NCBI RefSeq assembly: GCF_037154075.1
Contig: NZ_JBANRJ010000001.1
Location: 2,661,501 to 2,725,500 of the forward strand
Length of the DNA stretch: 64,000 nucleotides
Origin: Sphingobium aromaticiconvertens
GTDB lineage: Bacteria > Pseudomonadota > Alphaproteobacteria > Sphingomonadales > Sphingomonadaceae
Reading direction: 5' to 3'
The notes beneath the pieces are model-generated. The model was not told the DNA's origin. It was given only the letters and a program-made list of their open reading frames with translations, and searched no databases. Position numbers and translations under genes: made by a program. This document shows, piece after piece, positions 16,677-64,000 of this stretch. The number at the start of each line of letters is the position of its first letter. Position 1 is the first letter of the stretch.

Positions 16677-16737
16677 AAGGAGGGTTTGGGCTTCGTCGTA
16701 GTGACGAAGGAACGAAGATGAAGCCCAAACCCTCCTT
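16677..16737. repeat. 18-bp inverted repeat straddling the IS3 orfA start, with a nested 7-bp hairpin
   Basis: The arms AAGGAGGGTTTGGGCTTC (16677-16694) and its complement (16720-16737) enclose a 25-base loop. The right arm begins at the last base of the orfA ATG (16718-16720). Within the region CTTCGTC (16691-16697) can also pair with GACGAAG (16703-16709), which is incompatible with the long stem. The ribosome site AGGAGGG is inside the left arm. This looks like protection against external transcripts or a translational switch; function is inferred. The same structure is at 54982-55042. Confidence 0.8.
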
Positions 16738-17104
16738 GAAAAATTCGCCGACAAAGGCCCCTGCTGAGCGTGTTGTGAAGGATATCCGGCGGCAGACCCG
16801 GCGCCATTTCTCAGCCGAAGACAAGATCCGTATTGTGCTGGACGGTCTGCGCGGCGAGGACAGCATCGCCGAGTTGTGCCGCAAGGAAGGCATTGCCCAA
16901 AGCCTGTATTACACCTGGTCGAAGGAGTTCATGGAAGCGGGCAAGCGGCGCCTGGCCGGTGACACCGCCCGTGCTGCGACCACTGGCGAGGTGCAGGATC
17001 TGCGCCGCGAGGCCCGTGCCCTGAAGGAATGCGTGGCCGACCTGACGCTGGAAAACCGCCTGCTTAAAAAAAGCATGATCGCGGATGGGGGCGACGACGA
17101 ATGA
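16718..17104 (+). CDS. IS3-family transposase OrfA (copy 1)
   Basis: 128 residues. The HTH spans about residues 30-65 (RHFSAEDKIRIVLDGLRG, CRKEGIAQSLYYTWSKEF) and a C-terminal leucine-rich segment (LRREARALKECVADLTLENRLLKKS) suits multimerisation. It recognises the element ends. Its stop overlaps the orfB start (ATGA). The ORF is intact and its translation equals that of copy 2. Confidence 0.93.
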   Translation: MKPKPSLKNSPTKAPAERVVKDIRRQTRRHFSAEDKIRIVLDGLRGEDSIAELCRKEGIAQSLYYTWSKEFMEAGKRRLAGDTARAATTGEVQDLRREARALKECVADLTLENRLLKKSMIADGGDDE

Positions 17105-18081
17105 GGTATCCCGCATCCGAAAAGCTCGAGATCATCCGGATCGTCGAGCAGTCGCACCTGCCCGCCAAGCACACGCTGGACAAACTCGGCATCCCCCGCC
17201 GGACGTTCTACCGCTGGTACGATCGCTTCGTCGAAGGCGGGCCGGAGGCGCTGGAAGATCGGCCATCGGCGCCGAGTCGGGTGTGGAACCGCATCGGCGA
17301 CGATATCCAGGGCCAGATCGTCGAGATGGCGCTGGATTACAGCGAGCTGTCACCGCGCGAACTGGCGGTGCGCTTCACCGACGAGAAGCGCTACTTCGTG
17401 TCGGAGGCCACCGTTTACCGCCTGTTGAAGGCCCACGATCTGATTACCAGTCCGGCCTATGTGGTGATCAAGGCCGCCGATCGCTTCCATACCCAGACCA
17501 CGCGTCCGAACGAGATGTGGCAGACCGATTTTACCTACTTCAAGATCATCGGGTGGGGCTGGATGTACCTGTCGACCGTGCTCGACGACTTCTCGCGCTA
17601 CATTATCGCCTGGAAACTGTGCACCAACATGCGCGCCGAGGATGTCACCGACACGCTGGACCTGGCCCTTAAGGCTTCCGGCTGCGACAGCGCCACCGTG
17701 CTGCACAAGCCCAGGCTGCTCAGCGATAACGGCCCCAGCTACATCGCGGGCGAACTGGCGGAATACATCGATGCCCAGAAGATGAGCCATGTACGCGGCG
17801 CTCCGATGCACCCCCAGACCCAAGGCAAGATCGAGCGCTGGCACCAAACCCTGAAAAACCGCATCCTGCTGGAAAACTACTTCCTGCCCGGCGACCTTGA
17901 GGCCCAGATCGAGGCCTTCGTCGAGCATTACAACAACCAGCGTTACCACGAGAGCCTGAACAACGTGACGCCCGCCGACGCCTACCTCGGCAGGGCTCCC
18001 GCCATCATCAAACAGCGCGAAAGGATCAAGCGAAAGACCATCGAATATCGGCGCTTGCAACACCGCAGGCTCGCCGCTTAA
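17101..18081 (+). CDS. IS3-family transposase OrfB (copy 1)
   Basis: 326 residues. An N-terminal HTH (PAKHTLDKLGIPRRTFYRWYDRF) and HTH_21-like segment precede the rve core. The acidic triad is visible as MWQTDFTYFK (Asp), LLSDNGPSY (Asp) and QGKIERWHQTLKNRI (Glu, 35 residues later). It catalyses strand transfer of the element. Intact, so the element may be active. Confidence 0.93.
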   Translation: MRYPASEKLEIIRIVEQSHLPAKHTLDKLGIPRRTFYRWYDRFVEGGPEALEDRPSAPSRVWNRIGDDIQGQIVEMALDYSELSPRELAVRFTDEKRYFVSEATVYRLLKAHDLITSPAYVVIKAADRFHTQTTRPNEMWQTDFTYFKIIGWGWMYLSTVLDDFSRYIIAWKLCTNMRAEDVTDTLDLALKASGCDSATVLHKPRLLSDNGPSYIAGELAEYIDAQKMSHVRGAPMHPQTQGKIERWHQTLKNRILLENYFLPGDLEAQIEAFVEHYNNQRYHESLNNVTPADAYLGRAPAIIKQRERIKRKTIEYRRLQHRRLAA

Positions 18082-54981: not shown

Positions 54982-55042
54982 AAGGAGGGTTTGGGCTTCG
55001 TCGTAGTGACGAAGGAACGAAGATGAAGCCCAAACCCTCCTT
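54982..55042. repeat. Inverted repeat over the orfA start (copy 2)
   Basis: Same 18-bp arms and nested 7-bp hairpin as at 16677-16737. The right arm starts in the orfA ATG. Confidence 0.8.
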
Positions 55043-55409
55043 GAAAAATTCGCCGACAAAGGCCCCTGCTGAGCGTGTTGTGAAGGATATCCGGCGGCAG
55101 ACCCGGCGCCATTTCTCAGCCGAAGACAAGATCCGTATTGTGCTGGACGGTCTGCGCGGCGAGGACAGCATCGCCGAGTTGTGCCGCAAGGAAGGCATTG
55201 CCCAAAGCCTGTATTACACCTGGTCGAAGGAGTTCATGGAAGCGGGCAAGCGGCGCCTGGCCGGTGACACCGCCCGTGCTGCGACCACTGGCGAGGTGCA
55301 GGATCTGCGCCGCGAGGCCCGTGCCCTGAAGGAATGCGTGGCCGACCTGACGCTGGAAAACCGCCTGCTTAAAAAAAGCATGATCGCGGATGGGGGCGAC
55401 GACGAATGA
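55023..55409 (+). CDS. IS3-family transposase OrfA (copy 2)
   Basis: 128 residues, translation identical to the copy at 16718. HTH and leucine-rich coiled coil intact; stop overlaps orfB. Identity of both copies indicates recent spread or gene conversion. Confidence 0.93.
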   Translation: MKPKPSLKNSPTKAPAERVVKDIRRQTRRHFSAEDKIRIVLDGLRGEDSIAELCRKEGIAQSLYYTWSKEFMEAGKRRLAGDTARAATTGEVQDLRREARALKECVADLTLENRLLKKSMIADGGDDE

Positions 55410-56386
55410 GGTATCCCGCATCCGAAAAGCTCGAGATCATCCGGATCGTCGAGCAGTCGCACCTGCCCGCCAAGCACACGCTGGACAAACTCGGCATCCC
55501 CCGCCGGACGTTCTACCGCTGGTACGATCGCTTCGTCGAAGGCGGGCCGGAGGCGCTGGAAGATCGGCCATCGGCGCCGAGTCGGGTGTGGAACCGCATC
55601 GGCGACGATATCCAGGGCCAGATCGTCGAGATGGCGCTGGATTACAGCGAGCTGTCACCGCGCGAACTGGCGGTGCGCTTCACCGACGAGAAGCGCTACT
55701 TCGTGTCGGAGGCCACCGTTTACCGCCTGTTGAAGGCCCACGATCTGATTACCAGTCCGGCCTATGTGGTGATCAAGGCCGCCGATCGCTTCCATACCCA
55801 GACCACGCGTCCGAACGAGATGTGGCAGACCGATTTTACCTACTTCAAGATCATCGGGTGGGGCTGGATGTACCTGTCGACCGTGCTCGACGACTTCTCG
55901 CGCTACATTATCGCCTGGAAACTGTGCACCAACATGCGCGCCGAGGATGTCACCGACACGCTGGACCTGGCCCTTAAGGCTTCCGGCTGCGACAGCGCCA
56001 CCGTGCTGCACAAGCCCAGGCTGCTCAGCGATAACGGCCCCAGCTACATCGCGGGCGAACTGGCGGAATACATCGATGCCCAGAAGATGAGCCATGTACG
56101 CGGCGCTCCGATGCACCCCCAGACCCAAGGCAAGATCGAGCGCTGGCACCAAACCCTGAAAAACCGCATCCTGCTGGAAAACTACTTCCTGCCCGGCGAC
56201 CTTGAGGCCCAGATCGAGGCCTTCGTCGAGCATTACAACAACCAGCGTTACCACGAGAGCCTGAACAACGTGACGCCCGCCGACGCCTACCTCGGCAGGG
56301 CTCCCGCCATCATCAAACAGCGCGAAAGGATCAAGCGAAAGACCATCGAATATCGGCGCTTGCAACACCGCAGGCTCGCCGCTTAA
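55406..56386 (+). CDS. IS3-family transposase OrfB (copy 2)
   Basis: 326 residues, translation identical to the copy at 17101, with the same acidic triad (MWQTDFTY, LLSDNGPSY, QGKIERWHQ). Intact and potentially active. Confidence 0.93.
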   Translation: MRYPASEKLEIIRIVEQSHLPAKHTLDKLGIPRRTFYRWYDRFVEGGPEALEDRPSAPSRVWNRIGDDIQGQIVEMALDYSELSPRELAVRFTDEKRYFVSEATVYRLLKAHDLITSPAYVVIKAADRFHTQTTRPNEMWQTDFTYFKIIGWGWMYLSTVLDDFSRYIIAWKLCTNMRAEDVTDTLDLALKASGCDSATVLHKPRLLSDNGPSYIAGELAEYIDAQKMSHVRGAPMHPQTQGKIERWHQTLKNRILLENYFLPGDLEAQIEAFVEHYNNQRYHESLNNVTPADAYLGRAPAIIKQRERIKRKTIEYRRLQHRRLAA

Positions 56387-56460
56387 CATCAACCCCAAGA
56401 CGAGGCCCGCACTCCGCTAATTTACGACGCGACGTGTGCCAAATGTTCTGACGACGGACA

Positions 56461-57499
56461 GTTCGCGCCAGCGCAGCGCCCGCACGGGTGACGACCTTGC
56501 CGGAGAGCCCCTTCTTCCCGTCCGTGTCGACGAAGAAACCCTTCACGGCCTGATCGACCACCGAATGCTCATCGAAATCGACGCAGGACAGCGAGACGAG
56601 CTGGATCTCGACACGCTCTTTCGCGAGGCTGCCGGTGGCGTTGCCGACGACGAAGCAGCCCGACAGATTGGCTTTGACATCATTGGGGAGCACGGCTGGC
56701 GCCTGCACGCGGGCGATGATCGGTTCGGGATTGCTGGTCGCGTCCCGGCTGGCCAGCGCGTCGATCCCGGTCAGGAGGCGTGCCCGCATAAAACCAGGCG
56801 GCAAATAAATCGTCCGACTCTTTTTTTCGAATCCGAACCCGCGCCGCCAGCACCGTCCTTGGGCACAATGGGCGTCGTGGCCTGGCCGATCGCGCCGACG
56901 ACTTTCTCGACCGGCGGCGCCGGCGGGGCGGGCGGTCCGGATGGCGGCACCGGCGGGACCGGCAGGCTACCCTCGGCGCTTCCAATTTCCGAAGGTGAGG
57001 GCGGTACCGGCAAATCGGGCGGACTGCCGGGCAGGGCGGGCGGCAAGGGACCACCATCCGCATCGGCGCCCGGCGCCGCATGCGGGATGATCGGTGTCTT
57101 GCCTTCCTCGATCGCGGTGATGCGATCCCCAAGGAGATTTTGCCCGTCGAGCACCTTCTTGAGGTCGCCGCGCAGCTTCAGCTCCAAACTGTCGCCACGC
57201 AGTCCCGCACCCATGTCGAGCTTGGATGTGGTCGGCGCGGTCGCGACCGGCGTGTCGGCACCGCTTGCCGAATAGAGCCCATAGCCCAGGACACTGATCG
57301 CGGCGGCGACGCCGAACTGCTGCGCGCGAAGTTTCTGGCGCGAGCTCAACGCATCCCAGCGCGCGCGAAAATCGATGAGCTTCGCGGCGGTTTCCGGCTC
57401 GCCATGCTCCCCGGCCGCCTGTTCCGCGAGGCGGGCCTGATAGCGGCTCGCCTCGATCGGAGCGCCCTGGCTCTGCGGATCGTCCCGTTCGCCGCTCAT
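56461..57499 (-). pseudogene. traB: F-type conjugation protein TraB, frameshifted and 3' truncated
   Basis: TraB is the VirB10-like inner-to-outer membrane bridge of the F-type secretion system. From ATG 57499 the protein has a cytoplasmic N-terminus, a membrane segment (FGVAAAISVLGYGLYSA), a coiled coil (LELKLRGDLKKVLDGQNLLG) and a long Pro-rich spacer. A run of seven T (56821-56827, A on the coding strand) shifts the frame. Adding one base would continue into SRTIYLPPGFMRARLLTGIDALASRD, the start of the TrbI-like domain, which runs to the IS at 56460. The rest of the domain is missing. ATG overlaps the traK stop. Confidence 0.87.
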
Positions 57500-58284
57500 T
57501 GCACCGCTCCCCGGCGCACAACGACCAGACGAGCGGTGTCGCCGGCATGGAGGTCGGTATGATCCAGCGTGACCGCGAAGATGTTCGCGCCAAGCGCAGA
57601 GACGAGGAAGGCCCGTTCGTCGAGCCGCGTTTCGGCGGACACGCGAACCAGATATTCGCTGGCGGAGAGGCCGGCGCCGTCGATCGCGATCCTGCGGCGT
57701 TCGTGCAGCGAGGCCGCAGGCAGCGACGCGAGGACGAAATCCCGAGCGGCCGGCGCCACCTCGGAGAAACTCTCGGGCACGCGGTCCTGCAGCAGGGAAA
57801 GCGTGATCGAGACCGCGCGCTCCTCCTCGACCAGGGGGCCGAGAAGATCGGCATTGGCCCGCGCGCGCTGTGCAGCGCCCGGCGCCAGGATCACGGTCTG
57901 GGCGGGAATATCCGAAGGCTCGGCATAGAGCGGATAGACCGCACCATTGCAGTTGATAAAAAACTCGGACGCCGCTGTTGCATAGGTCCGGGTGGGAACG
58001 CCCTCGCTGTCCACCTCCTTCACCAAGAACTTGATCCACGCGTCCGAACCGCTGCGTTCGACGGCGATCGCCTTCTCGGCGGAGAATTTGACATCCTCGA
58101 TTTCGCCGCCCTGGCAGACGACATGATTGATGTCGCGGTTGGAAAGGCGGATGCTGCTGGTCTGGTCGGGCAAGGCCGTGATCGACTGGGCCTGCGCCTG
58201 GGCCGAGATGGCGGCGGCGAAAGCCAGGATCGCAGCTGCCTGGACGCAGACGCGCGTTGGGGTGGCCGGATCACCGATCGGCAT
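57496..58284 (-). CDS. traK: F-type conjugation protein TraK (VirB9/secretin-like)
   Basis: About 262 residues. The signal peptide (QAAAILAFAAAISAQAQAQS) precedes SITALPDQTSSIRLSNRDINHVVC, the TraK N-domain, and the C-terminal beta domain with YLVRVSAETRLDERAFLVSALG. It forms the outer-membrane part of the transfer channel with TraV and TraB. Met 58284 is preferred to 58299 because AGGAG lies seven bases before it. The gene overlaps traE and traB. Confidence 0.9.
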   Translation of the reverse strand: MPIGDPATPTRVCVQAAAILAFAAAISAQAQAQSITALPDQTSSIRLSNRDINHVVCQGGEIEDVKFSAEKAIAVERSGSDAWIKFLVKEVDSEGVPTRTYATAASEFFINCNGAVYPLYAEPSDIPAQTVILAPGAAQRARANADLLGPLVEEERAVSITLSLLQDRVPESFSEVAPAARDFVLASLPAASLHERRRIAIDGAGLSASEYLVRVSAETRLDERAFLVSALGANIFAVTLDHTDLHAGDTARLVVVRRGAVQ

Positions 58285-58906
58285 CGAAATTCTCCTCATG
58301 CAACGAGGTCAGCCAGAAGCGGCCATTCTCGATGGTGAAGCCGATCCGCAGATTCCCGCGGAACTTGCGGATGACGCCGCCGATCACGCGCACCTTTTCG
58401 ACAGGCACGAGGATGTCGGCGTTGGTGGTCATCACCGGCTGGTCGGGGCGGATATAGGTGGCGATCGACAGTGTCGGATTGTCCGAAAGCTCGTCGAGAA
58501 TGCCGTTCAGGCTGTCACGCAGGGCATTATAGGCTGACGGATGGGCGATCCCCAGCAGCTCCTGGAACTGCCGATCCGCCGAATAGGCCGAATAGGTACC
58601 CGCAAGGCTCACGATGTTGCGGGTCATCATCCGCAGATATTCGGGCGACGGGCTGTTCCCGGTGACGTAGAGATCGCCACCCGCACCAAAGGGCACGACA
58701 ACCGTTCGCTGGTTCTGGTTGGACGTGTAGATGACGATGCCGAGCACCGCGGTCACGCCGAACAGGCCGATGATCGCGAATTTGAGGAGCCGGTTCTCTT
58801 CGAACAGGTTCGCCGACCCTTGAAGGTAGCGGTGAATTCCCCAGCTCGCGGGCTTCCCCAGCAGCGGGTCGGCCTGCGACTTCGCCCAAGCTTTCAGAAA
58901 TGCCAT
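58271..58906 (-). CDS. traE: F-type conjugation protein TraE (VirB5/VirB8-like position)
   Basis: 211 residues. A short cytoplasmic start, one transmembrane helix (LLKFAIIGLFGVTAVLGIVIY, residues about 40-60) and a periplasmic domain (SPEYLRMMTRNIVSLAGTYSAYSADRQFQELLGIAHPSAY) are as in TraE of F-like systems. It is needed for pilus assembly. It lies between traL (8-bp gap) and traK (overlap). Confidence 0.9.
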   Translation of the reverse strand: MAFLKAWAKSQADPLLGKPASWGIHRYLQGSANLFEENRLLKFAIIGLFGVTAVLGIVIYTSNQNQRTVVVPFGAGGDLYVTGNSPSPEYLRMMTRNIVSLAGTYSAYSADRQFQELLGIAHPSAYNALRDSLNGILDELSDNPTLSIATYIRPDQPVMTTNADILVPVEKVRVIGGVIRKFRGNLRIGFTIENGRFWLTSLHEENFDADR

Positions 58907-58914
58907 GGCTCACC

Positions 58915-59181
58915 TCACTCGTAGAAGCGGGTCTGGGTCGGACCCGGATAGTGACGGAAGCGAAGCAGGCCCCAGCGCCAGGCGAGATGCGGGATGAACC
59001 CGCGCGGCTTCGTGCGCTTCCAGGGAATGAAAAGGAGAAGAGCGCCGATGAGCATCCACCCGATCACTCCGCCCACGATGACCGCGACGAAGATGGTCGA
59101 CATGACCAATATGAACTCGTCGGAGGCGAACCAGAGGATCTGGACGGGCCGATGGAGATATTGGGGCAGACGTTCATCCAA
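58915..59181 (-). CDS. traL: F-type conjugation protein TraL (VirB3-like)
   Basis: 88 residues: MDERLPQYLHRPVQILWFAS, two joined hydrophobic helices (FILVMSTIFVAVIVGGVIGWMLIGALLLFIPW) and a basic tail ending FRHYPGPTQTRFYE. That is the TraL plan of an inner-membrane protein for pilus assembly. Standard order pilin-L-E-K-B is kept. Confidence 0.9.
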   Translation of the reverse strand: MDERLPQYLHRPVQILWFASDEFILVMSTIFVAVIVGGVIGWMLIGALLLFIPWKRTKPRGFIPHLAWRWGLLRFRHYPGPTQTRFYE

Positions 59182-59301: not shown

Positions 59302-59616
59302 TCAGATCACCATCCCGAAGGTCTGGAGGATCGTGTCCGATTTGATGAGGCAGACCGCGGCGACGATCGTTGGGATGCCGATCATCACGTTCGAAAACAG
59401 CCGCGATACGCCGAAGAGGAAGGCCGCGACGCCGGCGACAAAGCCCAACGGGCCCTTGACGCCCTTGTTCACGACGATGTCGTAGATGTCGTAGCCGAGG
59501 TCGCCAACGGCCGGCGCCGTGAACGCGTGTGCGCCACCGCTCATCGCCGCGAACAACGCCAAAGGGACGCCGATATTCGCGACCGAGACAGCCTGCTTAC
59601 CGATTTTCCTGATCAT
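59302..59616 (-). CDS. traA: Conjugative pilin-like protein (TraA position)
   Basis: 104 residues. A signal peptide (VANIGVPLALFAAMSGGAHA) is followed by a short mature part with two hydrophobic helices (GPLGFVAGVAAFLFGVSRLF; MIGIPTIVAAVCLI), like F-type pilins. Its position immediately before traL supports this. Sequence alone is too short for full certainty. Confidence 0.75.
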   Translation of the reverse strand: MIRKIGKQAVSVANIGVPLALFAAMSGGAHAFTAPAVGDLGYDIYDIVVNKGVKGPLGFVAGVAAFLFGVSRLFSNVMIGIPTIVAAVCLIKSDTILQTFGMVI

Positions 59617-59807: not shown

Positions 59808-60590
59808 TCAGTGGCTCGGCCCCTTGCCAGGCTTCTGCTGGTCGAGGAACTCTTCGAGCTCGCCCTGCTGAAAGCCCGAGATGAGCTTGCCATCAGCGAT
59901 CAGCGTCGGTGTGCCGCTGATTCCGATCTTTCGGACAACCTCGGCATCGGCCTCGACCTTCGTTCGGCCGGCCATGCATTTATGAAGCTGCTTGGGAGCG
60001 GCGCCGGCGTAGATCGCCTTGAATTCGGCCAGCTTGTCCGGCGAGCAAAGGATATGCTCCGCCTTGGCCGCAGCCTCCGGGTGGATGCCACTCACGAAAT
60101 AGACCAGCCGCCGGACGGGCTTGCCTTCGGCTTCCTTCACCGCCCAGAACTTCTCGAGCGCGCGGCAATAGGGGCAGTCGGGATCGGTGAACTCGATCAC
60201 CGTTGGAGCGGTCTCCGGCCCGATGACGAGCGCTTTTGCCGGATCGATGTCGCCAAGCTTCTTCCGGGCGCCCGCATCCTGGGCAAGCGCGGTCAGATTG
60301 ACTCCGTTCTTGTCATAGACTGCGGCGAACAGGATATGCTCGCTCTCCGGCGCATAATAGATGACCTTGCCGCCAGCGATCGCCTGATAGATCGGACCCT
60401 TTACGGGCGAGGGCCCGAAATCGTCGAACCGCAGGTTGGTGAACGTCTGGTGGAGCTGCTCCTCGGCCGCCTTGGCGGCCTTGCTGAGAGTTTCCGACGG
60501 GTTGTCGGAAGGTTGCGCCAGCGACGAGCCTGGAAGACTGCTCGCGAGGATCGCCGCAAGCGACAGAGACAAGATCGAGCTGCTCTTCAT
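59808..60590 (-). CDS. dsbC: DsbC-type periplasmic thioredoxin-fold isomerase of the transfer operon
   Basis: 260 residues. Signal peptide (SILSLSLAAILASSLPGSSLAQ), an N-terminal dimerisation domain and a thioredoxin fold with the active site FTDPDCPYCRALEKFW and cis-Pro loop GISGTPTLIADG. It probably isomerises disulfides in TraK/TraV-type proteins or the pilus assembly proteins. ATG overlaps the upstream small gene (ATGA). A 191-bp gap without gene separates it from the pilin. Confidence 0.9.
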   Translation of the reverse strand: MKSSSILSLSLAAILASSLPGSSLAQPSDNPSETLSKAAKAAEEQLHQTFTNLRFDDFGPSPVKGPIYQAIAGGKVIYYAPESEHILFAAVYDKNGVNLTALAQDAGARKKLGDIDPAKALVIGPETAPTVIEFTDPDCPYCRALEKFWAVKEAEGKPVRRLVYFVSGIHPEAAAKAEHILCSPDKLAEFKAIYAGAAPKQLHKCMAGRTKVEADAEVVRKIGISGTPTLIADGKLISGFQQGELEEFLDQQKPGKGPSH

Positions 60591-61021: not shown

Positions 61022-61097
61022 GGCACTACAGAGCCGGTCGGGGTACTGTGGAGCCGAAATCGGCACTACAGAGCCGGTAGCGGCACTCAAGTGCCGA
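61022..61097. repeat. Iteron-like array, four units with an exact 20-bp period
   Basis: Units start at 61022, 61042, 61062 and 61082: GGCACTACAGAGCCGG, GGTACTGTGGAGCCGA, GGCACTACAGAGCCGG, GGCACTCAAGTGCCGA. Two are identical. The consensus equals that of the array at 6946-7001. It lies between the divergent transfer operon and the 61.2-kb gene. It is probably an initiator- or regulator-binding array; a replication origin is possible. Confidence 0.8.
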
Positions 61098-61595: not shown

Positions 61596-61778
61596 CGGCT
61601 TTTGCGTGGGGGCGCCCGGCCGATGCACCATTTTCCAGGGGATATGAATGGTTAAACTCGGTCCGCTTTCTCTCTCATTTTGGGAATTGTTGGATTTGAC
61701 CGGCTGCGTACAACGCACCAGCTTCCTCATCGTCGGGTCACGCATGGGAGCTTTTGGGCGTTTCAGGGAGTCCTGGAC

Positions 61779-62195
61779 ATGCCCCTTCAAAGCAATACCG
61801 GACTGCGTGATCCAGAGCTGCTGGAGCAGATCAAGCTGCTGTCCGGCAAAGCCATCGAGGAGCGGCGCAGACATGCACGCACGACGCAGGAACAACTGGC
61901 CCGGCGCACCGGGATCGGCACTCGGTGGATTCGGGAGATCGAAGCCGGTAATCCCAGATCATCGATCGATCATCACATAAAATGCGCGACAGCGCTCGGA
62001 CTCCCAATCTCTTATCTGCTCATTCCCCTGCTCTTCATGGAGAAAGAGATGAACTTCCCTGTTGCATTCCTCGTGGATAATTTCGCCGGCCTCCAGGAAC
62101 GTGCCATCAAGTGTATCGGCGACTTCTATATAGAGACGCTCGCGCGTCAGGTCCGCCCCGATCGTGACATGACCCAAGCCCAGCCTGGTGCCTGA
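61779..62195 (+). CDS. XRE-family helix-turn-helix regulator
   Basis: 138 residues. The Cro/CI-type HTH is KAIEERRRHARTTQEQLARRTGIGTRWIREIEAGNPRSSIDHHIKCATALGLPI (residues about 20-75). The tail is unique. ATG 61779 has CAGGGAG upstream. The next gene, a GntR regulator, starts nine bases after its stop, so both are in one unit upstream of the lasso peptide genes. Confidence 0.8.
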   Translation: MPLQSNTGLRDPELLEQIKLLSGKAIEERRRHARTTQEQLARRTGIGTRWIREIEAGNPRSSIDHHIKCATALGLPISYLLIPLLFMEKEMNFPVAFLVDNFAGLQERAIKCIGDFYIETLARQVRPDRDMTQAQPGA

Positions 62196-62204
62196 GGCTC
62201 TTGC

Positions 62205-62852
62205 GTGTCGCCCGAACCCGTCACTGCGGAGCGGACATATCAACGTCTAAAGCTCGATATCATGTCAGGGCGCTTCCGGCCCGGTGCTCTCGTTGTTTCC
62301 CAGATGGTTGCGGAGGAGTTTGGCACCAGTATTTCCCCGGTTCGTGATTCCATGCAACGCTTGGTCGGCGAACGCCTGCTTGGCCATCACGAGGGCGGAG
62401 GCTTTGAAATTCCCGCGGTGACCGCCGAAGGCCTTCGCGATCTTCATATCTGGCATGGTCAGGTAGTCCGCCTTGCCGTCAAGGAGGGTAAGCCCGCCGC
62501 ATTGCCGCAAAATTTGCTCGCGGGACTCGAGGAACTCGATCCCGAGGATTCTTACCGGATCGTGCAGAAGACGACGGATCTGTTCCAGCAGCTAGGAAAA
62601 GCATCCACCAACTCTGAACATGGCCCGACGATTGCCGCAATCAGCGACCGGCTGTTTGCGTTTCGACTCCACGAGCATGGGTTGAAGGATCGCAAGGCAG
62701 AGCTGATCAGGATCTGGAATGTGATCGTTTCGGGTCAGGATTCGACCGCGCGTGAGGTCCTATGGGCCTACCATCGGCGACGAATCCGCCGCGTCGATAC
62801 CCTGTTACGTGCCTTCTACGCTGCCAAAGGCGCGCAAAACCAACGGTTATGA
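62205..62852 (+). CDS. GntR-family transcriptional regulator
   Basis: 215 residues. Winged HTH: YQRLKLDIMSGRFRPGALVVSQMVAEEFGTSISPVRDSMQRLVGERLLGHHEGGGFEIP. The C-terminal helical domain is FCD-like but short of the usual metal ligands. GTG 62205 has GAGG eight bases upstream. GntR genes are known close to proteobacterial lasso peptide clusters; a control role here is plausible, by position only. Confidence 0.82.
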   Translation: MSPEPVTAERTYQRLKLDIMSGRFRPGALVVSQMVAEEFGTSISPVRDSMQRLVGERLLGHHEGGGFEIPAVTAEGLRDLHIWHGQVVRLAVKEGKPAALPQNLLAGLEELDPEDSYRIVQKTTDLFQQLGKASTNSEHGPTIAAISDRLFAFRLHEHGLKDRKAELIRIWNVIVSGQDSTAREVLWAYHRRRIRRVDTLLRAFYAAKGAQNQRL

Positions 62853-62973: not shown

Positions 62974-63108
62974 ATGGAACGCGAAGAAATGACGACCGAC
63001 GCCGATTTCATCGATCTGGGCCAAGCCAGCCAGCTCACCGAAGGCAACGGCGACAATGGCGGAGACACGAACGGGAAGCAGCTGCTGGGCGGGCTCTCCG
63101 ACGACTAA
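62974..63108 (+). CDS. Lasso peptide precursor (A protein)
   Basis: 44 residues with GGAGG six bases upstream. The leader (residues 1-23) has FIDLGQASQLTE, with the obligatory Thr at position -2. The predicted core is 21 residues, G24 to D44: G-N-G-D-N-G-G-D, then TNGKQLLGGLSDD. Gly1 and Asp8 of the core are placed for an eight-residue macrolactam ring. No other acidic residue falls at ring position 7-9. The B gene follows. The leader end resembles that of microcin J25 (QLTKG). The core recalls, from memory, syanodin I of Sphingobium (21 residues, Asp8, ending DD), but is not the same. Confidence 0.85.
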   Translation: MEREEMTTDADFIDLGQASQLTEGNGDNGGDTNGKQLLGGLSDD

Positions 63109-63173
63109 CGACGATGGTGCGCGGTCGTGAGGTCGCGCACCACTTCGTGGGAGATGAGCCTGTGGGATTTGCC

Positions 63174-63827
63174 ATGTCTCAGACGGTCAGCTTCGCACTG
63201 GTCGATGACCAACCGGTGTTCCTGGATCTGGCCAATGACAGGTATCTGCGCCTGAACCAGACTCAGGAACGCGCATTCCTGTCCCTGCTGTCCGATCGTC
63301 TCCACCAACAGAAGCATGGCCAGGCGATCGCCCAATTAGTGGCAGGAGGCCTTCTTCTTCCGGTCGGTTCTCATGAGAAACCGATGGCTTGCGCGGCATT
63401 GCCTTTACCATCCTCAAGCCTTTTAGAAGGCCCACTGCCAGGGGCAGGCTTAGGGCTGATCGCAAGTGCCCTGCTTCAGCTGCGTAGAACGAGAGGCGAC
63501 CTCAGACGCGAGTCCTTGCACGCCGTGATCGAGCGCCTGCGGCACAAGAAGAGCAGGGGCTTTGGCCTAGATGCGGACGCAGCTCGCCTTCTAGCCATCG
63601 TGGCGGCCTTCGAACGGACAAAACTTTACCTCTCTTCCTACCGTCAATGCTTGCCGCGCTCACTGGCGATGGCCATGCACCTTGCGCATGCGGGGATTTC
63701 AGCTGACCTTGTGATCGGCGTCGCCACAAAACCGTTCCGTGCTCATTGCTGGGTTCAGCATGCCGACATCGTCCTGAATGACCGTCTGGAAAGGGTTCGG
63801 AACTTCACTCCGATCCTTGTCGCGTGA
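63174..63827 (+). CDS. Lasso peptide B protein (fused RRE plus transglutaminase-like leader protease)
   Basis: About 217 residues. The N-terminal part (VSFALVDDQPVFLDLANDRYLRL) is the precursor-recognition domain of McjB-type proteins. The C-terminal cysteine protease domain has RQCLPRSLAMAMHL (Cys), FRAHCWVQH (His) and DIVLND (Asp). It removes the leader before cyclisation. I prefer ATG 63174, with GGGA six bases upstream and the usual N-terminus; the frame stays open to ATG 63114, six bases after the precursor stop. Its end overlaps the C gene by four bases (GTGA). Confidence 0.93.
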   Translation: MSQTVSFALVDDQPVFLDLANDRYLRLNQTQERAFLSLLSDRLHQQKHGQAIAQLVAGGLLLPVGSHEKPMACAALPLPSSSLLEGPLPGAGLGLIASALLQLRRTRGDLRRESLHAVIERLRHKKSRGFGLDADAARLLAIVAAFERTKLYLSSYRQCLPRSLAMAMHLAHAGISADLVIGVATKPFRAHCWVQHADIVLNDRLERVRNFTPILVA

Positions 63828-64000
63828 ATGGGGTTCGCTTCATCGCTATAATCCCCGTGGCGGACGACTATGACGCCGATCACGTCGATGCGGTTTTCGC
63901 CGCCGCTCGGGCGGCGCTGGTTGGCGCAAGGACCTTCGAGGCCTACCGGCTTCAAGTCGTCAGTACCGGACCGGCCATCATCGCTCCAAAAGAAGACGCT
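63824..64000 (+). CDS. Lasso peptide C protein (asparagine synthetase-like cyclase), 5' part only
   Basis: 59 codons from GTG 63824 to the window edge: VNGVRFIAIIPVADDYDADH, then VDAVFAAARAALVGARTFEA. The start overlaps the B gene stop, as in other lasso operons. C proteins activate the core Asp with ATP and close the ring. Only the N-terminal glutaminase-like start is visible, so the call rests mainly on position and the typical short opening beta-strand. Confidence 0.75.
   Translation, partial: MNGVRFIAIIPVADDYDADHVDAVFAAARAALVGARTFEAYRLQVVSTGPAIIAPKEDA

Follow-up and report, generated by a model that had tools for sequence, protein, structure and literature searches.

A lasso peptide operon beside conjugation genes in Sphingobium aromaticiconvertens, and the recurrence of this setting across the genus

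Background

Lasso peptides of the kind treated here are made from a precursor, A, by the B and C proteins and opened by E, an isopeptidase; sets of a TonB receptor, FecR and FecI import and sense a ligand. The present study concerns a lasso operon at the right-hand end of a 64,000-nucleotide stretch of the Sphingobium aromaticiconvertens genome (assembly GCF_037154075.1, contig NZ_JBANRJ010000001.1, positions 2,661,501 to 2,725,500), referred to throughout as the window, together with the conjugation genes that precede it. An original prediction, made from the letters of this stretch, had recognized the lasso genes; the conjugation genes lie inside the window and are absent from that prediction, and it is this setting that is the novel part. 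Across the genus, lasso loci recur beside the genes of type IV secretion systems (T4SS), and we are highly confident that conjugative elements carry the lasso cassette as an exchangeable module.

Results

The window ends in what is almost certainly a genuine lasso operon, with the gene order A-B-C that had been proposed for it (Table 1). The precursor scores 33 bits against the Pfam model Subterisin (cut-off 27) and 37.8 bits against the NCBIfam model lasso_benenodin, NF033522 (cut-off 33). The strong ribosome site attributed to this 44-codon gene is a GGAGG 5' of its ATG, and the Thr at leader position -2, Gly at core position 1 and Asp at core position 8, also named in the original prediction, are all present, as is usual for a precursor of the benenodin family. 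The B protein, foreseen as a McjB-type protease with a Cys-His-Asp set, gives about 80 bits to each of PF13471 and NF033537 and carries all three residues, of which Cys and His are found in 107/107 aligned B proteins and Asp in 90/107. Overlaps between the genes had been expected; B and C do overlap, by 4 bp, but A and B lie 5 bp apart when the longest B frame is taken. The operon continues past the window edge in a 19.5-kb stretch of this 5.45-Mb genome, designated L007, and there the anticipated remainder of the cyclase is found: C runs to L007:4587 and encodes 587 residues with an Asn_synthase domain and the motif SGGLDSS. The isopeptidase looked for beyond the edge is likewise present, as an S9-family protein of 725 residues convergent with C, whose motif GLSDG has its Gly and Ser conserved in 86/87 aligned E proteins. 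With the catalytic residues of its lasso enzymes preserved, the operon seems capable of producing its peptide; by homology, the intact A-B-C set with E is predicted to yield a lasso peptide with an eight-residue ring and, if untrimmed, a neutral mass of 1984.872 (core minus water). A scan of a genome-contig collection with the window B alone recovered no relative.

The expected FecI, FecR and TonB receptor set, on the other hand, is not intact. The receptor is reduced to its last 140 residues (718-857 of 857, in the numbering of its homologue in L010, another lasso cluster of this genome), two IS21-like elements then follow, and neither FecR nor FecI has a match in the window or in L007. The uptake and sensing side of this locus is thus lost, and the copy is decaying.

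Upstream, the lasso genes form one run with ORF140 and with XRE- and GntR-type regulators, divergent from a minus-strand series of tra genes (56.4-60.6 kb). This F-type system is incomplete: TraL, TraE and TraK are present and TraB is broken, tblastn with the intact 449-residue TraB of L010 placing residues 49-234 in one frame and 233-354 in another. TraC is not found at the window locus, and the two TraC matches of the genome adjoin the elements of two other clusters, L008 and L010. Relatives of the small TraA-like protein were found in 58/119 lasso loci of the survey described below, using a hidden Markov model built here. A PDB sequence search with ORF140 gave TolC-like rows alone (E about 1), and the window regulators gave general helix-turn-helix (HTH) matches and nothing more specific against PHROGs and PADLOC. 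A transposase-like gene pair occurs in two copies, at 55023-56386 and 16718-18081 of the window; the right-hand one adjoins the broken end of TraB and might conceivably be a trace of how the rest of the tra operon went missing. With both the transfer operon and the sensing side broken, the window copy is a relic of the arrangement; without the receptor, the sigma and anti-sigma genes and a portion of the tra operon, nothing beyond production of its peptide can be expected of it.

Table 1. Features of the locus (window positions, except where prefixed by L007, the stretch that continues past the window edge; IS, insertion sequence)
Feature	Position	Strand	Evidence and remarks
TraB (VirB10-like) remnant	56460..57379	-	split into two pieces that differ in frame; lacks its last fifth, close to IS
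TraK, F-type T4SS	57496..58299	-	PF06586 96 bits, PF23536 84 bits
TraE, F-type T4SS	58271..58906	-	PF05309 98 bits; 91% identity to pCHQ1 TraE
TraL, F-type T4SS	58915..59181	-	PF07178 32 bits
TraA-like small protein, pilin position	59302..59616	-	assigned solely from its place between dsbC and traL; no Pfam match
DsbC family protein, first gene of tra operon here	59808..60590	-	PF10411 53 bits
Palindrome CGGCACT-CA-AGTGCCG, 7-bp arms, candidate operator	61081..61096	.	by eye; divergent region between dsbC and TraY-like gene
ORF140, TraY-like, predicted tandem ribbon-helix-helix	61197..61595	+	
XRE-type HTH regulator; real start probably more internal	61680..62195	+	PF01381 31 bits
GntR family regulator	62205..62852	+	PF00392 48 bits; starts 9 bp past XRE stop
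Lasso precursor A, 44 residues, core GNGDNGGDTNGKQLLGGLSDD, predicted ring Gly1-Asp8	62974..63108	+	PF24178, NF033522 above cut-off
Lasso B, leader peptidase	63114..63827	+	PF13471, NF033537
Lasso C, cyclase, first part inside window	63824..64000	+	PF00733 97 bits
Isopeptidase E, beyond window	L007:4614-6791	-	Peptidase_S9 56 bits
TonB receptor fragment, beyond window	L007:6788-7210	-	alignment to L010 homologue

Every match to the lasso B2 model in 94 Sphingobium genomes, 119 in total, entered the survey together with its surroundings; four matches are in the source genome and 115 elsewhere, and 56/94 genomes hold at least one. T4SS genes occur within about 9.5 kb of 72 of the 119 loci, 59 of them F-type (58 from our own profile searches, plus the window) and 13 P-type, with none of both types. 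Random placement would leave about 2.8/119 near a VirB10/TraB match. This estimate, into which only the per-genome counts of the 444 VirB10/TraB matches entered, and that for the acyl-homoserine lactone (AHL) synthases given below both place loci at random; because the genomes are related and not independent, they show the size of the effect rather than a probability. As far as each stretch reaches, the F-type layout is nearly always TraC-TraB-TraK-TraE-TraL-TraA-DsbC on one side and ORF140-XRE-GntR-(A)-B-C-E-TonB-FecR-FecI on the other. At the P-type loci (VirB4/5/6/9/10), VirB10 lies ahead of the lasso genes and co-directional with them in 11/13, and in four of these 11 the A gene starts about 530 bp behind VirB10. 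Such recurrent docking suggests a role in DNA transfer for this class of peptide.

The same association is seen from the side of the transfer genes. TraE matches, 150 of 168 of which were listed and used, fall into two score classes; among the matches listed, the low-scoring class, resembling integrative and conjugative elements (ICEs), lies within 10 kb of a lasso B in 53/79 cases (median 5.06 kb), compared with 3/71 for the high-scoring, plasmid-like class. Twenty of the 26 ICE-like loci lacking a lasso were retrieved: XRE stands beside DsbC in 16 of these 20, two have ORF140, none has a lasso B or C, and three show an isolated TonB or FecI match. Among the 119 lasso loci, a TonB receptor accompanies 103, FecR 98, FecI 97 and GntR 95. 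The retention of XRE in 16/20 lasso-less tra loci and the presence of GntR in 95/119 lasso loci assign XRE to the transfer side and GntR to the lasso side. A scan with a TraE alignment over Sphingobium, Novosphingobium, Sphingomonas, Sphingopyxis and others was evaluated for the best 80 of 132 loci, a set that overlaps the genus survey (an 85,139-base S. terrigena contig, for example, is in both) and hence is not an independent sample. Among these best 80, 14 were too short; lasso B lies on the right side in 30 of the 66 with at least 6.5 kb there, and ORF140 in 27/30 lasso-bearing against 8/36 lasso-less loci.

AHL synthases are a second recurrent neighbour. PF00765 has 124 matches in 70/94 genomes (among the matches listed), and such a gene lies within 16 kb of lasso B at 26/119 loci, where about one would be expected. 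At 12/59 F-type and 2/13 P-type loci the synthase is always 10-14 kb away on the C side of B, past the place of fecI; it is also found at 12/47 loci with no T4SS found nearby, 11 of these having it 2.5-7 kb upstream of B. The window copy has none within 16 kb of B. On plasmids, one locus (L265, 6679-9622) joins a block of LuxR, AHL synthase, phytanoyl-CoA dioxygenase and GntR genes directly to lasso A, and the ends of two others (L263 and L269) show GntR, dioxygenase and AHL synthase genes beyond fecI. The identity of these recurrent neighbours, transfer genes and AHL synthases among the kinds counted, speaks against the proposal, made for sphingocin, that such peptides help cells to exploit aromatic pollutants. 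Transposon mutants are reported to implicate lasso peptides in phenanthrene use by Sphingomonas BPH (PMC11006600), and several window ORFs (open reading frames) look catabolic by eye; for the loci considered here we nevertheless regard this role as very improbable.

Where transfer and lasso genes meet, the distance between GntR and the tra-side XRE is that of genes in a single operon. The XRE-GntR gap has a median of 7 bp and is at most 30 bp in 56/57 other F-type loci measured, values taken from the in-frame GntR start nearest the XRE stop, a choice that favours small gaps. In the divergent stretch between dsbC and the TraY-like gene, a GGCAN..NTGCC sequence is present at 39/59 F-type loci. 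Palindromes with arms of at least 8 bp were compared at 50 loci, to which the window, with its 7-bp arms below the threshold, does not belong; the 78 matches obtained within the tra region count those 50 starting palindromes as well. Five loci (L128, L130, L142, L143 and L144), all without ORF140, share a word around CGCC[AG]GATCGGCG between the dsbC region and the sequence upstream of A, and 3/464 mismatched control pairings also share at least 13 bp. The idea that one operator serves both tra and lasso A was rejected for now, with palindrome matches upstream of A at 0/50 loci and a shared word at 5/58.

That the lasso promoter lacks the tra-side palindrome would suit an explanation that places a hot spot for insertions behind the tra regulators and makes the cassette neutral or metabolic cargo, perhaps scavenging or siderophore-like, with no tie to transfer. 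The 20 lasso-less tra loci hold other genes behind XRE (by eye, a relaxase-like protein, a serine recombinase and efflux genes), as a hot spot would, and 47/119 lasso loci have no T4SS found nearby. An indifferent insertion site is harder to reconcile with a layout so fixed that the XRE-GntR junction almost never exceeds 30 bp, or with repeated docking both behind VirB10/TrbI in P-type systems and next to AHL synthases, and we consider plain cargo unlikely.

The transfer genes are conserved and the lasso cassette is hypervariable. Mean protein distances, taken over 29 F-type loci that differ in core, are 0.17 for TraL, 0.20 for TraE, 0.29 for DsbC and 0.50 for XRE, rising to 0.58-0.72 for TonB, FecI, E, C, GntR, FecR and B. 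The 103 C proteins were placed on a quick tree, which has several long branches; on it the F label changes 15 times, at least seven of them forced by well-supported branches, and the P label six times, at least three of them forced; as such changes may be gains or losses, the cassettes were docked, or lost, several times. The window C clusters with that of L058, which has no T4SS found nearby.

A hypervariable cassette on a conserved backbone is also what arms-race selection would produce, were the peptide a narrow-spectrum lasso antibiotic that favours carriers of the element over close relatives, with E and the receptor genes giving tolerance. Clusters for such weapons do travel on conjugative elements, nisin being an example in the relevant passage of PMC12715929, and the pertinent section of a 2022 review (PMC9266682) names narrow activity for astexin-1. 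That section, however, reports the other known isopeptidase-type lasso peptides as having no antimicrobial activity and calls their role enigmatic, and nine plasmid loci examined by us contain no named ABC exporter or immunity gene (their gene tables being incomplete). A bacteriocin strikes us as unlikely.

A B profile built here recovers 115/119 loci, and precursors with a recognizable core were kept for 103/115; the 12 dropped include two other precursor kinds. All 103 cores start with Gly, which is partly by construction in that the precursor finder gives preference to an ATG start, a ribosome site, a DLG motif and the pattern Thr-x-Gly. There are 78 different cores, with the ring acceptor at position 8 in 92/103 and at position 9 in 11/103; the window core, GNGDNGGDTNGKQLLGGLSDD, occurs once. 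The original prediction had considered this core, free of aromatic residues, to be unusual, a view not borne out among its relatives: Phe, Trp and Tyr are missing from 52/103 cores, and from the part after position 9 in 71/103, and the feature was rejected as a peculiarity. Considered alone, the window peptide adds a member to an already known kind. The odd feature of the window precursor is instead its leader, which ends Thr-Glu: position -1 is Lys in 71, Gln in 12, Arg in 10, Asn in seven, and His, Leu and Glu in one each, the last being the window alone. Nearly all cores (101/103) end in Asp or Glu, mostly in a tail of the type G-[IL]-x-[DE]-[DE], far from the ring. As for the other kinds, five loci (L074, L082, L084, L091 and L126) have short lasso-like precursors (...LGSVSRDT-K-AIVQTGEQEEF...), in a tandem pair at 4/5; L074, L084 and L091 show no isopeptidase match and each lies 8-9 kb from a plasmid-like TraE gene. 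In four more (L112, L122, L132 and L145), GntR, B and C adjoin a further precursor kind (...LGxARxxTRASFSG... or similar), whose core residue 1, if the usual Thr rule holds, is not Gly.

The source genome carries four lasso clusters with four different cores. L009 and L010 retain all cassette genes, including the receptor and FecR/FecI, and stand beside P-type and F-type transfer genes, respectively; in L008 (6603-9750), A and B adjoin tra genes and an IS21 element takes the place of C, for which there is no match. A 27-bp tRNA-Lys 3' sequence has exactly two copies in the genome (G000:C1:2449416 and 2735321, in L011 and L012), 286 kb apart and flanking the window, with a tRNA-Lys gene at L007:12806-12881. 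The two copies are candidate attachment sites of one large integrated element.

Discussion

The explanation that we favour is that the window locus represents the lasso cassette of a conjugative element and that its peptide acts as a recognition signal tied to transfer. The lasso peptide would be exported from the element-bearing cell and re-imported via the element's own TonB receptor; uptake would be reported through FecR to FecI, and the isopeptidase would open the peptide. Cells carrying the same element could thereby recognize one another, and the reading would be passed via GntR to the control of transfer, of the lasso cassette, or of both. Taken as a whole, this account falls only a little short of an even call. 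Its parts differ in strength: a functional tie of the cassette to transfer is probable, while the signal role is inferred, and that the peptide is a signal rather than a weapon we hold more tentatively than the account itself. In its widest form, the proposal would make the isopeptidase-type lassos of sphingomonads conjugation pheromones, encoded in a swappable cassette that is wired into tra regulators and partly paired with AHL, so that the elements of neighbours gate transfer; this extension is attractive, but on balance doubtful.

Several observations weigh against a recognition signal tied to transfer. The association is far from universal: 36/66 sufficiently long tra loci (best 80 of 132) carry no lasso B, and the 47/119 lasso loci mentioned above have no T4SS within about 9.5 kb, some being clipped by contig ends. 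One of these 47, L053, has tra genes 16.9 kb from its lasso genes, L160, which is among the 20 lasso-less tra loci retrieved, being the other half of the same element. No shared control has emerged, as the tra-side palindrome of a locus has no match upstream of its own A gene in the 50 loci tested and an exact 13-17 bp word common to both places occurs at 5/58 loci only. Covariation of core and receptor is weak among F-type loci (partial r 0.16 after controlling for B, C and E, compared with 0.28 for GntR and 0.22 for TraE) and nil in the all-lasso set (0.03). Co-resident clusters share a core in 0/85 pairs, with only 0.5 expected, and avoidance of equal cores within one genome was rejected as not significant. 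Finally, clusters for ribosomally synthesized and post-translationally modified peptides (RiPPs) are known as plain cargo of conjugative elements, such as that for nisin (passage in PMC12715929).

Docking to conjugation systems, with AHL synthases in about a fifth of loci, makes an enigmatic lasso function testable, and Sphingobium indicum (japonicum) UT26S is a workable strain that has the arrangement on a plasmid typed as conjugative. Should the tie be functional, it would amount to lasso-based control of gene transfer in bacteria that spread pollutant-degradation plasmids (in the part of PMC4288048 concerned).

Comparison with known systems

The closest counterpart is pCHQ1, the plasmid of UT26S, in which both sides have the same layout as the window: DsbC-TraL-E-K-B-V-C-W-U-N-TrbC-F-H-G on one, and hypothetical-HTH-GntR-A-B-C, TonB, FecR and FecI on the other. 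The TraE proteins are 91% identical and the B proteins only 30%. Unlike the window, pCHQ1 keeps the receptor, the sigma genes and a long tra operon, and is typed as conjugative; its gene table lists no isopeptidase and is blank for 2.1 kb between receptor and C. The core of its precursor is GMGSGSTDQNGQPKNLIGGISDD, which we take to be the sequence of sphingonodin II. Sphingonodins I and II and UT26 are named, without sequence, in the pertinent passage of a review, and a literature search, which misses most subscription papers, found no published link between the pCHQ1 lasso locus and conjugation genes. In PLSDB, 7/8 records with this TraE carry a lasso B 4-5 kb away, pCHQ1 included; pDC02, the exception, yields no B match, nor is a B annotated in the stretch examined. 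Of 24 plasmid records with a B match, nine were examined around that match, and pCHQ1 around its TraE. Among the nine further loci, three adjoin an AHL synthase; the site is behind TraG in a canonical F operon for one (Sphingomonas panacis) and behind TrbI in a P-type operon for another (PP1Y plasmid Lpl), and four have neither kind of neighbour.

Peptides encoded by an element can gate its conjugation, as the linear peptides of ICEBs1 (PhrI) and of the enterococcal pheromone plasmids do. The proposed gating would be alike, and would differ in using a lasso, an isopeptidase and TonB import. A published AHL synthase system has a synthase and phyH beside T4SS genes, as here, where lasso loci in addition lie between or next to such genes; 'lasso', 'GntR' and 'asparagine synth' are absent from the main text of that report. 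Nisin, on an ICE, and class II lanthipeptides (PMC12715929) show that RiPP clusters reside on conjugative elements; the peptide class is another one, and the passage concerned describes no fixed slot behind tra regulators. Finally, clusters of the benenodin/subterisin type, as outlined in the relevant section of PMC9266682, share with the window the precursor models, GntR, B, C and the isopeptidase, and the window locus differs from them in its attachment to conjugation genes, in its loss of the receptor and FecI/FecR, and in the Glu at leader position -1.
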